Below are positions 1 through 30,295 of a stretch of DNA of 64,000 nt, in pieces. The stretch comes from Chlorogloea sp. CCALA 695 (lineage in GTDB: Bacteria > Cyanobacteriota > Cyanobacteriia > Cyanobacteriales > Chroococcidiopsidaceae): NCBI RefSeq assembly GCF_003003885.1, contig NZ_PVWN01000021.1:1-64000 (forward strand), read 5' to 3'. Each line of letters begins with the position of its first letter. Position 1 is the stretch's first letter. The notes under the pieces are model-generated. The model ran no database searches. It saw only the letters and a program-made list of their open reading frames with translations, and had not been told where the DNA came from. The translations under genes were made by a program, and so were the position numbers.

Positions 1-75
1 AAGCCGGATACTTGGAAACTTGTAAGTCCGGTTTCTAGGGGGGAAGGGAGCAGTAATGCTCCTGCCCTACCCGAC
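1..75 (+). mobile_element. 3' end of inner group II intron (domains V and VI)
   Basis: The window opens in a group II intron. Positions 1-34 fit a 34-nt domain V: an 8-bp basal stem starting AAGCCGGA and closing TCCGGTTT, a two-base AG bulge, and a GAAA tetraloop at 15-18. The upper stem contains two U-U mismatches, so it may be weakened. Positions 35-75 form a domain VI hairpin (GGAGCA, loop GTAA, TGCTCC) ending CTACCCGAC, with the AY end expected of these introns. The downstream sequence is in frame with a reverse-transcriptase C-terminus belonging to a different intron, so this element is inserted inside that ORF. The 5' part lies outside the window. The 3' splice site at 75 is inferred. 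Confidence 0.75.
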
Positions 76-806
76 TAATCATACGACCACAAGATAATGC
101 GACGGAGATACTCGAAAGGATTAGTCAGTTTCTAGCCATCAGAGGAATGAAGGTAAGTGAGAATAAGACAAAGATAACCGCTACGACAGAGGGTTTTGAC
201 TTCCTTGGCTGGCACTTTAAAGTGCAAAGCAACGGAAAATTTAGATGTACCCCCTCAGTGGAGAACTTCAAGAAATTCCGCCAGAAGGTAAAAGCAATCG
301 TCAACTGCTCGAATTATGGAGCTAAGGAAAAGGCAACCAGGTTAGCCCCCTTAGTTAGAGGCTGGAGAAATTACCACAAATTCTGCAAGATGGATGGGTC
401 GCGGTTCTCGCTATACCACATTCAAAACAGAGCCTTTAAGGTATTTAACAAGGAAGCCAAACTAGACCGCCATTCTAGCAAGAAATTACTAGACAAGGCG
501 TTCCCAGCAGTTCCCTACTCCGAAAACAAATTTGTCAACGTCAAAGGAAACAAATCACCTTACGACGGAGATATAATCTACTGGAGCGAACGCAACAGTA
601 AGTTATACGACGACCACACCTCTAGAGCCTTAAAACGGCAAAACCATACGTGCGGACATTGCGGCATGAAGTGTCTCAGCGACGAGCGGGTACATTTACA
701 CCACATAGACGGGAATCATAGCAACTGGAGAAATAAAAATCTAGTAGCTCTACATGAATCTTGTCATAACTACGTCCACATGGGCAAAAGGGAACAACAA
801 CCCTAA
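76..806 (+). CDS. Group II intron reverse transcriptase/maturase, C-terminal part (partial)
   Basis: Intron-encoded protein acting in splicing and retrohoming of the outer intron. The frame is open from the inner intron's 3' splice site, so the ATG at 147 is not a true start. Residues just before it (TEILERISQFL, then RGMKVSENKTKI) match the region that follows the YADD active site of these reverse transcriptases, with the GFDFLGWHF motif after it. A maturase (X) domain follows, with VRGWRNYHKF. The C-terminus is an HNH endonuclease: CGHCGMKC, LHHIDGNHSNWRNKNL, then CHNYVH, with paired cysteines and histidines intact. The N-terminal half, including YADD, would lie upstream of the inner intron. 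Activity would require the inner intron to be spliced out. Confidence 0.85.
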
Positions 807-894
807 GAATATCTGGGAGCCGGGTGAGGCAAAAGTTTCATGCCCGGATCTGTAGGAGAGGTGCGGGGTTGTAATAGCCCCCATCGACTCTAAC
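76..894 (+). mobile_element. 3' part of outer group II intron (interrupted by the inner intron)
   Basis: This segment holds the end of an intron-encoded protein ORF (to 806) followed by its own domains V and VI. Domain V is 817-850, again exactly 34 nt: basal stem GAGCCGGG/CCCGGATC, upper stem TGAGGC/GTTTCA, loop AAAA, bulge TG. Domain VI spans about 851-894 and ends CTCTAAC, which sets the probable 3' splice site after 894. The next base opens a reading frame that continues into a LAGLIDADG endonuclease, so the exon is an intein endonuclease gene. Together with the element at 1-75 this forms a twintron-like arrangement. The 5' half of the intron is outside the window. Confidence 0.8.
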
Positions 895-1379
895 TAACAG
901 AAATACTAATCGATGAGCTTCAATACTCTGGGGAAATGAGAATTATTCAACCTGGGGTTTACACACCTCATTATCGAATAAATTTTTCGTCGCTAAGGTT
1001 AGCAAGTGCGCTAAGTAGATATGGTGTAGTGACGGGAAGGATGTCTACAGCTAATTATTACTTTCCTAAAAAGTTAGAATATTTAGCTGCTTATCTATTG
1101 GGCTATTTTGATGGCGATGGATGTGCTTATGTCAATAAAGGTAGAAGTGGAGGTCTTGTTTGTATTGTTGGTGCTTGGGAATTTACTTACGAATTAGCAA
1201 GAATTTTAAATATGGGTTCTGTACAAGAACACCAATCAAAGAAAGTTTACTACTGGAGAATTTTTAGCCGCGAACATATACAATCATTTTATAATTTTGT
1301 GTATACAAATCAAAGTTTAGGGTTACAACGAAAAAGACAAAAAATCGAGCAAATATTAGAGGGCTACAAACGTGGTTAA
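895..1379 (+). CDS. LAGLIDADG homing endonuclease domain of the DnaE intein, C-terminal half (partial, ends in TAA)
   Basis: The frame is open from the outer intron's 3' splice site and ends with TAA at 1377-1379. The ATG at 936 is internal, since the reading continues upstream as TEILIDELQYSGE. The diagnostic motif LLGYFDGDG (1095-1121) is the second LAGLIDADG helix of a double-motif intein endonuclease. The stretch before it (LASALSRYGVVTGRMS...FP) resembles the linker between the two motifs, so the first motif should lie 5' of the introns. The ORF leads directly into the intein C-terminal segment in a different frame and overlaps it by 8 bases. In a contiguous intein this domain sits between the N- and C-terminal splicing blocks. 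That is exactly the position here, so it is read as a relic of the ancestral DnaE intein. Confidence 0.75.
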
Positions 1380-1479
1380 AATAATTAGTTGTAAATCGTT
1401 AGGTATTCAAACTGTATATGATATTGGAGTCGAAAAAAATCATAATTTTATATTAGAAAATGGAGCAGTTGCTTCAAAT
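1372..1479 (+). other. DnaE split intein, C-terminal fragment (36 aa)
   Basis: The segment encodes MVKIISCKSLGIQTVYDIG through GAVASN. Block F features are seen in VYDIGVEKNHNF, including its histidine. Block G ends SN followed by the +1 cysteine (TGC at 1480-1482). The penultimate residue is Ser rather than His, as usual for the DnaE family. All residues needed for the C-terminal half reaction (terminal Asn36, Cys+1) are present, so trans-splicing competence is expected. Confidence 0.93.
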
Positions 1480-2718
1480 TGCTTTAACAAATCTCATTCA
1501 ACAGCTTATGCCTATGTAACTTATCAAACAACTTACTTGAAAGCAAATTATCCTGTGGAATATATGGCGGCGTTGTTAACATCAAATAGCGGCGATACAG
1601 ATAAGGTGCAAAAGTATATTGCTACTTGTTTGACAATGAATATTCCTATAGAACAAGTAGATATCAATCATTCGGTTATAGATTTTGCGCCTCTTGACAC
1701 TACAATTTTGTTTGGATTTTGTGCGGTGCGAAATCTTGGATTAGGTGCAAGTGAATGTATTTTAGAAGCAAGAAATAATGGTGGTGAGTTTAAGTCATTA
1801 GCCGATTTGTGCGATCGCGTAGATTTGCATACAGTCAGCCGTCGCGCTTTGGAAACTCTGATTTTATGCGGTGGTTTTGACAAAATTGAGCCTAATCGCA
1901 ACCAATTAATCCACGATTTAGATGTAGTTTTAGATTGGTCGCAATCGCGCCTCAAAGAACGCGCCAGTGGGCAAGTAAACCTCTTTGATTGGAGCGGTTT
2001 AGAAAATAACGAGCAAGCAAGTAATAAGTTTGATTCCGTCCCTAAAGCTGCAAAAGTAGCGGATTTTTCTCAACAAGAAAAGCTAAATAAAGAAAAAGAA
2101 TTACTTGGCTTTTACGTTTCCGATCATCCCCTAAAATCTGTGCGTTCCGCCATGCAAGTTTTAGCACCAATTAATTTAAGCGAATTAGAAGCGCAAAGCA
2201 AAAAAGCCTTACTGTGTGCAGTAGTGATGATTAGTAGCATTAAACCAATTACCACCAAAAAAGGCGATCGCATGGCGATTGTAAAACTCGAAGACTTGAC
2301 AGGACAAACGGAAGCTGTAGTATTTCCGAGAACCTTCGAGCAAATTGGCTCGTTGCTAGTTACCGATGCGCGCCTAATTGTTTGGGGTAAACTCGATCGC
2401 AAAGATGATGATGAGCTTCAGCTAATTATTGAAAATGCTCAATTGATTGACAAAGTGCAAATGTTAATGGTGGAATTAACAATCGAACAAGCCGTAGACA
2501 CTTCAAAGCAAAACCAGTTAAGAAGCATTCTGCAAGAGCAATCTGGCGACAAAGATAAAGCCAATACTCCCGTACTTGCGATCGTCACAGCAATAAATAA
2601 CCGTCAATTAGTCCGTTTTGGTCGTCAGTATTGGGTACAAAACTGCAATGCTGCGGTACAGTCGCTCACCACTGCAAATTTTATGGCTTATGCTCAACCT
2701 TTAACCAATTTTACCTAG
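1372..2718 (+). CDS. dnaE: DNA polymerase III alpha subunit, C-terminal half with N-terminal split-intein fragment (IntC-DnaE-C)
   Basis: C-terminal half of the replicative polymerase catalytic subunit. It is joined to the N-half by protein trans-splicing. Residues 1-36 are the C-intein. Splicing leaves Cys37 (CFNKSHSTAYAYV) as the first extein residue. The extein includes a helix-hairpin-helix-like region near residues 138-172 and an OB-fold near 275-365. Start: GTG at 1372 gives exactly the 36-residue IntC of other cyanobacterial split DnaE inteins. GAGGG at 1359-1363, 8 nt upstream, is a plausible ribosome site, and the frame upstream is closed by TAG at 1357. The endonuclease ORF overlaps it by 8 bases, so translational coupling is likely. 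The extein length (412 aa) is normal. The N-half is not in the window. Confidence 0.95.
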   Translation: MVKIISCKSLGIQTVYDIGVEKNHNFILENGAVASNCFNKSHSTAYAYVTYQTTYLKANYPVEYMAALLTSNSGDTDKVQKYIATCLTMNIPIEQVDINHSVIDFAPLDTTILFGFCAVRNLGLGASECILEARNNGGEFKSLADLCDRVDLHTVSRRALETLILCGGFDKIEPNRNQLIHDLDVVLDWSQSRLKERASGQVNLFDWSGLENNEQASNKFDSVPKAAKVADFSQQEKLNKEKELLGFYVSDHPLKSVRSAMQVLAPINLSELEAQSKKALLCAVVMISSIKPITTKKGDRMAIVKLEDLTGQTEAVVFPRTFEQIGSLLVTDARLIVWGKLDRKDDDELQLIIENAQLIDKVQMLMVELTIEQAVDTSKQNQLRSILQEQSGDKDKANTPVLAIVTAINNRQLVRFGRQYWVQNCNAAVQSLTTANFMAYAQPLTNFT

Positions 2719-30192: not shown

Positions 30193-30295
30193 AAACTAGG
30201 GAACCCGGAGACCACGCCTACCACAAGCATCCCGTATTGCTGCTACCTTCCGGTTCTGACAAGATTTGGGCGTTGCGATCGCATGGATCCAGGTC
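30193..30295 (-). ncRNA. ffs: Signal recognition particle RNA (small bacterial type)
   Basis: Read on the minus strand the region contains GTCAGAACCGGAAGG, then TAGCAGCAATACGGGATG, the conserved Ffh-binding helix 8 core with its GGAA tetraloop. Flanking CGCC and GGCG arms extend the hairpin, and the 3' end CCGGGTTCCC is typical. The length is about 100 nt. Ends are estimated from the promoter and the loss of pairing. It sits between rca and the phasin-like gene, on the same strand. Confidence 0.85.

Follow-up and report, generated by a model that had tools for sequence, protein, structure and literature searches.

Gene content at the start of the window

The 5′ end of a 64,000-nucleotide (nt) stretch of Chlorogloea sp. 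CCALA 695 DNA (the window; contig NZ_PVWN01000021.1, positions 1–64,000) carries the 3′ parts of two nested group II introns (a twintron) and of a LAGLIDADG homing endonuclease gene, followed by the C-terminal half of the split DnaE intein (IntC) and dnaE-C, all on the plus strand. Base 1 of the window is exactly the first base of its contig, C109 in this 168-contig genome. Positions 1–75 hold domains V and VI (D5/D6), which form the 3′ end of the inner intron, intron B (Rfam RF00029, 44.5 bits, and 40.7 bits in a genome-wide search; the gathering score of 40 served as cut-off for D5/D6 matches); the remainder of intron B lies beyond the start of the contig, and D5/D6 are its only part at this locus. 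The 3′ half of the reverse-transcriptase/maturase open reading frame (ORF) of the outer intron, intron A, occupies positions 76–814 (TIGR04416 9e-16, under the full-length cut-off). Its frame is open from 78 to 806, beginning directly after YADDMV and closing with an HNH-like end; the ORF at 147–806 has a match to the maturase domain (GIIM 4e-8) and one to HNH that stays below the HNH cut-off (0.085). D5/D6 and the 3′ end of intron A, terminating in CTCTAAC, follow at 815–894 (RF00029, 54.5 bits). Both D5/D6 folds beat all 200 dinucleotide shuffles (z −3.5 for 1–75 and −3.75 for 815–894).

The 3′ exon of the endonuclease gene (895–1379) encodes the C-terminal 161 amino acids (aa) with the second motif GYFDGDG; its ORF at 936–1379 matches LAGLIDADG_3 (8e-7), and the exon junction fits that of relatives. 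The endonuclease stop and the IntC start overlap by 8 nt in different frames (GTGGTTAA, 1372–1379), as read from the sequence and seen again in relatives. A GAGGG at 1359–1363, within the last endonuclease codons, is by eye the likely ribosome-binding site of dnaE-C. IntC itself (36 aa, 1372–1479; TIGR01443 33.3 bits with a cut-off of 15.6, NF005616 695 bits with a cut-off of 646) is followed by the dnaE-C extein of 412 aa, which begins CFNKSH (1480–2718; profile and genome search); the ORF 1372–2718 as a whole is DnaE-C with the intein C-terminal motif. An initial annotation, made from the letters of the window, had named this series of two D5/D6 elements, C-terminal reverse-transcriptase half, C-terminal LAGLIDADG half, C-intein and DnaE-C, and the Rfam scores above the gathering score and the profile matches bear it out.

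The probable 5′ half of the locus

In the same genome, dnaE-N lies on contig C107 and encodes 879 aa with IntN at the C-terminus, followed by TAG. The N-terminal ORF of the endonuclease, with the first motif YLLGLIAADG, starts one base past this stop. This 5′ exon (C107:74590–74884), the counterpart of the exon at 895–1379, runs into GTGCGATTCG, a group II intron start (GTGCG), and C107 ends 77 nt later. The endonuclease profile is cut exactly between the contigs (positions 1–99 on C107, 99–259 on C109), and according to a genome search dnaE-N, dnaE-C and the endonuclease of the dnaE locus are each single-copy. At the exon junction, GAA C/TA ACA GAA reads E-L-T-E, the same as in the related locus L013, and the exons agree with relatives at every single residue position; the joined frame is free of stops, contains both motifs and encodes 259 aa, a length typical of most intact relatives. 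Such an ORF is not plainly the relic for which the endonuclease had initially been taken, and the exact exon join rules out an unrelated intron in intergenic DNA. The only other match to the endonuclease profile in this genome (64.6 bits) is a distinct stand-alone LAGLIDADG gene of 254 aa on contig C81 (L139, 863–1627), which is without dnaE.

The last 77 nt of C107 are shared exactly with contig C62, as might be expected of an assembler that uses words of about 77 nt and breaks contigs at repeats. The initial annotation had placed the missing 5′ parts directly upstream. They are indeed present at the end of C107, where a search of the upstream side found dnaE-N with IntN, the first LAGLIDADG motif and the 5′ end of the outer intron; they are not on the contig of the window, and we infer the physical join of C107 and C109 from the fit of their ends. 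The start of intron B and the middle of intron A are not seen at this locus, where the two contigs end.

IntN and IntC are carried by separate dnaE-N and dnaE-C polypeptides, as in a split DnaE intein. The endonuclease gene stands on its own: it has both a start and a stop, is not in frame with IntC and is separated from IntN by a stop. As the endonuclease is thus a separate gene between the split halves, we consider it very likely that the locus is a one-locus, "fractured" dnaE of three genes, namely dnaE-N.IntN, a free-standing LAGLIDADG gene and IntC.dnaE-C, with a twintron in the endonuclease gene. Of the four levels of nesting proposed from the window, intron B in intron A, intron A in the endonuclease gene and the endonuclease between the DnaE intein halves are supported; the fourth is modified, as the endonuclease gene stands between two dnaE genes and the intein is already split.

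The twintron

Contig C99 carries an uninterrupted copy of intron A, 2199 nt long and with 559 codons in its open frame, and window 76–894 aligns to nt 1382–2199 of this copy with 87.5% identity. The opposite side of the site is found on C62, where intron A extends up to nt 1381 and ends in CGCTATGCAGATGACATGGTAA (R-Y-A-D-D-M-V), followed by the start of a new group II intron, GTGCGACTCG (GTGCG), which is taken as that of intron B because of its site. The boundary at nt 1381/1382 therefore puts intron B just behind the catalytic YADD motif. On the 5′ side, as seen on C62, ATG GTA A/TA ATC would give back the reverse-transcriptase frame, and the 3′ side at the window locus is exact; removal of intron B would restore M-V-I-I without loss. 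For intron A, D5/D6, the GTGCG start (on C107) and the maturase domain were all found.

A second twintron is present on contig C151, with D5/D6 at the same site of an intron A. Window 3–77, comprising 73 nt of intron B and 2 exon nt, has exactly the sequence found at the edge of this twintron, and over the whole stretch 3–894 the identity is just 75%. The genome contains at least 34 D5 matches, 28 of them over the cut-off, a lower bound since 150 of 253 candidates were scored. Many of its contigs start or stop inside introns, and the genome is very intron-rich. A-type reverse-transcriptase ORFs are interrupted by other group II introns at various points (L003, C107:3442–4625; L004, C42:909–1510; L005 on C151; L177 on C62), hence nesting appears to be frequent in this genome.

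Under the three-gene reading, intron A has inserted into the endonuclease gene, and intron B into the reverse-transcriptase gene of intron A just behind YADD. Since the visible exon joins are exact to the codon, predicted splicing of intron B and then of intron A would restore both the reverse transcriptase and the endonuclease. The essential polymerase should be independent of this splicing because dnaE-C has its own start.

The endonuclease

Both LAGLIDADG motifs are present in the endonuclease, with their acidic residues invariant among 11 aligned sequences, and the match to LAGLIDADG_3 reaches 4e-13. The predicted fold (pLDDT 88.4) has its nearest solved structures in I-Tsp061I (1e-8), E-DreI (4e-8) and the TliVMA intein (6e-8), with TM-scores on the query of 0.46–0.49. 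The last of these agrees with the suggested homology to intein endonucleases, and the structural similarity to I-Tsp061I and TliVMA rules out that the endonuclease is unrelated to known ones. The phage endonuclease family phrog_4645 covers the protein almost end to end (1.8e-40), in all three sequences tested, and stand-alone endonuclease relatives with a similar layout exist. Median dN/dS is 0.16 for the endonuclease and 0.13 for dnaE-C, from the 33 of 91 pairs with dS < 1.5, which come chiefly from seven close loci; the former value points to purifying selection on the endonuclease, mostly in these seven loci. From its motifs, fold and selection and from the empty sites, the protein is predicted to be an active endonuclease.

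The locus in relatives and its distribution

A contig scan with the 147-aa C-terminal part of the endonuclease retained 80 of 104 relatives. The comparison was made with the close set of 19 cyanobacterial loci (L013–L031, 54–73% identical), the 61 distant ones (L032–L092) being left out. In all 19, dnaE-N lies upstream of the endonuclease, and IntN ends in a stop, which either just precedes the start of the endonuclease or follows it, in another frame, by at most a few dozen bases. In 18, dnaE-C lies downstream, each time on one contig; the contig of L027 ends before. The endonuclease ORF is intact in 15 of the 19. In 17 of the 18 loci that reach IntC (exception L029), the stop of the endonuclease and the start of IntC share 8 nt, with a GGAG-like stretch, noted by eye, a few bases upstream of the IntC start within the endonuclease gene. 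Extra insertions of about 0.6 to 1.3 kb were observed in the dnaE-N extein of four loci, at aa 707 in L022 and L029 and at aa 729–734 in L023 and L024; these are perhaps further inteins or introns.

Among 291 Cyanobacteriia genomes surveyed, IntN is found on dnaE-N in 130, IntC on dnaE-C in 132, and both in 127. The two halves lie in the order N before C on the same strand within 3 kb in 23 of these 127 genomes and at 6–8 kb in two; in 37 they share a contig in some other arrangement, and in 65 each is on a contig of its own. The one-locus form totals 25 of 127, 23 directly and two of the 65 by contig ends, namely Chlorogloea sp. CCALA 695 and a genome (G061) in which the two contig ends overlap by 119 nt. 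The endonuclease profile is matched at ≤1e-10 in eight of the 291 genomes, seven times at dnaE and once, in G025, by a different stand-alone gene. G005 and G061 have shortened copies (by an internal deletion in G061), and G045 has a 48-aa remnant. The other 18 of the 23 one-locus genomes contain other genes, or little, in the gap. A gene for an Uma2 "putative restriction endonuclease" occurs in five of seven endonuclease-less gaps tested with Pfam (L115, L117, L123, L128 and L125); this does not bear out a general rule by which some other nuclease takes the place of the endonuclease, and Uma2 genes are common in cyanobacteria.

Possible mobility of the intein and its endonuclease

Compared with 45 other loci, the extein of the Chlorogloea genome is closest to that of a genome of the same family without intein (G037; 86% for one part and 65% for the other). 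For IntN, the nearest counterparts are those of Planktothrix (79%) and M. vaginatus (78%), the exteins of which are more distant than that of G037 (78% and 76%; 52% and 53%). M. vaginatus HSN003 (L030) and a genome of the same genus, G277, differ by a clean empty site with flanks of 97.2% and 96.2% identity. Of the 29 genomes of this genus, among which the named M. vaginatus appears by its coordinates to be G317, 15 have IntN and one has no match; in 13 the extein alone was found, and 12 of the 13 have a frame open over >1170 aa. The endonuclease is present in 10 of the 15 intein genomes and in none of the 13 seemingly empty ones (Fisher p 2.5e-4, which ignores shared ancestry). Two genomes are ambiguous, G312 by a short frame and G314 by an IntN contig together with an extein-only match on another contig; excluding both, the counts are 9 of 14 and 0 of 12 (p 7e-4, again ignoring shared ancestry). 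In one genome, G310, a stop lies within the endonuclease gene.

In approximately unbiased (AU) tests with 19 endonuclease-bearing taxa, both the intein data (1e-4) and the endonuclease data (9e-6) reject the extein tree, and the combined tree is accepted by the endonuclease data (0.39). Taken together, the one-locus genomes, the presence of the endonuclease only with the intein, the empty sites and the tree conflict suggest that the classic split DnaE intein has a source that is mobile to this day. By homology, the products dnaE-N.IntN and IntC.dnaE-C would be made separately and joined by protein trans-splicing. The endonuclease would cut intein-less dnaE, and repair would copy the cassette in, as its motifs, fold, selection and the empty sites suggest.

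Farther along the window, a bacterial small SRP RNA was found on the minus strand (30199–30295, 56.5 bits).

Alternative explanations

Several observations weigh against the proposed arrangement or against its mobility as one cassette. No contig spans the join of C107 and C109, and the bulk of the 5′ half of intron A and nearly all of intron B are absent from the assembly at this locus. The endonuclease gene is broken in 4 of the 19 relatives (L023, L024, L029 and L030). The endonuclease tree is rejected by the intein data (4e-4) and the intein tree by the endonuclease data (1e-5); the intein of the Chlorogloea genome groups with L025/L028 (support 97), its endonuclease with L013. This conflict means that the cassette did not always move as one unit, and exchange or precise loss of parts is likely also involved; an empty site, too, can come from precise loss.

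The missing sequence at the contig ends may raise the suspicion of an assembly artefact, in which C107 and C109 come from different places and the join in the twintron is a misreading of repeat ends. The end of C107 holds the first 77 nt of intron A and the start of C109 the last 75 nt of intron B; both introns are repeated elements, which are frequent assembly break points. However, the endonuclease is single-copy and its two parts fit exactly, the halves are adjacent in the 18 relatives whose contigs reach dnaE-C, and the same contig-end reasoning is upheld in G061 by the 119-nt overlap, so that we regard an artefact as very improbable. Slightly more improbable still appears the four-level nesting of the initial annotation, with an unsplit DnaE intein, now frameshifted, whose in-frame endonuclease domain holds the twintron. 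The order IntN-LAGLIDADG-IntC is that of a full-length intein, and the fold resembles the TliVMA intein endonuclease. On the other hand, IntN ends in a stop in the Chlorogloea genome and in all 19 relatives, stand-alone relatives of similar layout exist, and the out-of-frame overlap with IntC recurs in 17 of 18 loci, hence is no one-off frameshift; an in-frame endonuclease domain is contradicted by these conserved gene boundaries.

More weight, while still unlikely, has the view that the nested introns and the endonuclease are dead debris, neither spliced nor homing, in which insertions piled up between the dnaE genes. One of the four broken endonuclease genes, that of M. vaginatus HSN003 (complete chromosome), is interrupted by an insertion of about 2.5 kb (L030, 3463–6000) with ORFs that look transposase-like by eye, and the internal deletion in G061 and the internal stop in G310 point in the same direction. 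A recent insertion without function could, moreover, leave the twintron frames intact and would look identical. Against this stand the intact visible frames and exact exon joins in the Chlorogloea genome, the purifying selection on the endonuclease in relatives and the good folding of both D5/D6. Since the endonuclease is broken in HSN003, dnaE-C would have to be expressed there without it, if dnaE is taken as essential.

For the three-gene locus, we tentatively hypothesize, at somewhat less than even odds, that a mobile one-locus element gave rise to the classic split DnaE intein and persists today, still spreading as a cassette between dnaE genes, that a phage-type free-standing LAGLIDADG endonuclease broke the intein, and that the two-locus form arose after decay of the endonuclease and rearrangement. 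The direction of change between the intein forms would then run from one locus to two. In the same hypothesis, the endonuclease gene became a haven for the twintron here because dnaE-C no longer depends on it.

Relation to known systems

In the classic split DnaE intein, as reportedly described by Caspi et al. in 2003, the halves lie at separate loci without an endonuclease. The locus analysed here shares IntN on dnaE-N and IntC on dnaE-C with it, and differs by its single locus, the presence of an endonuclease and a presence that varies within a genus. The "fractured genes" that Dassa et al. are said to have described in 2009 were mainly phage-like and metagenomic; they, too, reportedly have a gene of DNA synthesis that a split intein divides in two, and a separate endonuclease gene between the halves. 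The present case is instead a cyanobacterial genomic dnaE at the classic split DnaE intein site, with a LAGLIDADG enzyme and a twintron. In 18 of the 19 relatives, one contig holds the whole one-locus layout; in the Chlorogloea genome, the layout follows from fitting contig ends only.

Three papers describe the cyanobacterial split DnaE intein as evolutionarily stable (PMC3403396), whole clades as characterized by the split form (PMC2823733), and split dnaE as present in all strains of one genus except a basal one (PMC9403480). According to a further paper (PMC6390638), the dnaE of a sulfate reducer is divided between two adjacent frames and carries an intein, but not a split one.

A twintron with demonstrated splicing is known from Trichodesmium (Pfreundt and Hess, 2015; PMC4649490), where it is called the only such bacterial case in a protein gene as of 2015. 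It likewise consists of group II introns interrupting a cyanobacterial protein-coding gene; in our case, the interrupted gene encodes a putative homing endonuclease, and splicing is predicted. For Thermosynechococcus elongatus, Mohr et al. (2010; PMC2882425) report identical inner and diverged outer introns, read as recent independent insertions, at one conserved site in the outer ORF, which resembles the pattern described above. There, the inner intron sits between the first two start codons, with non-coding flanks (the latter as stated in PMC4649490), whereas here it sits behind YADD and inside a gene, with the inner introns compared over 73 nt only. From the mitochondrial DNA of Chaetomium thermophilum, a group II intron in an endonuclease ORF has reportedly been studied as a regulator of endonuclease expression (PMC4801052). 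This case also has a group II intron interrupting an ORF within another splicing element, but concerns a fungal mitochondrion, a group I intron as host and a single intron.

Among the top-listed papers of the literature searched, which mostly excludes subscription papers, none was found to describe an endonuclease gene flanked by dnaE-N and dnaE-C or a twintron in such a gene, and this absence is not proof.

Meaning of the finding

The origin of the split DnaE intein has been explained via an unseen intermediate. Split DnaE inteins are much-used tools for protein trans-splicing, and the one-locus arrangements resemble the proposed intermediate and make it testable. There is an endonuclease that can be assayed, a single genus offers filled and empty alleles at 97% identity, and a natural series from an intact endonuclease via a remnant to separated halves is visible. 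The nested introns represent a bacterial splicing element that could turn a homing endonuclease on or off. The wider result on the one-locus form and its mobility may outweigh the twintron in importance: this data suggests that a trait called evolutionarily stable (PMC3403396) is apparently still gained and lost.

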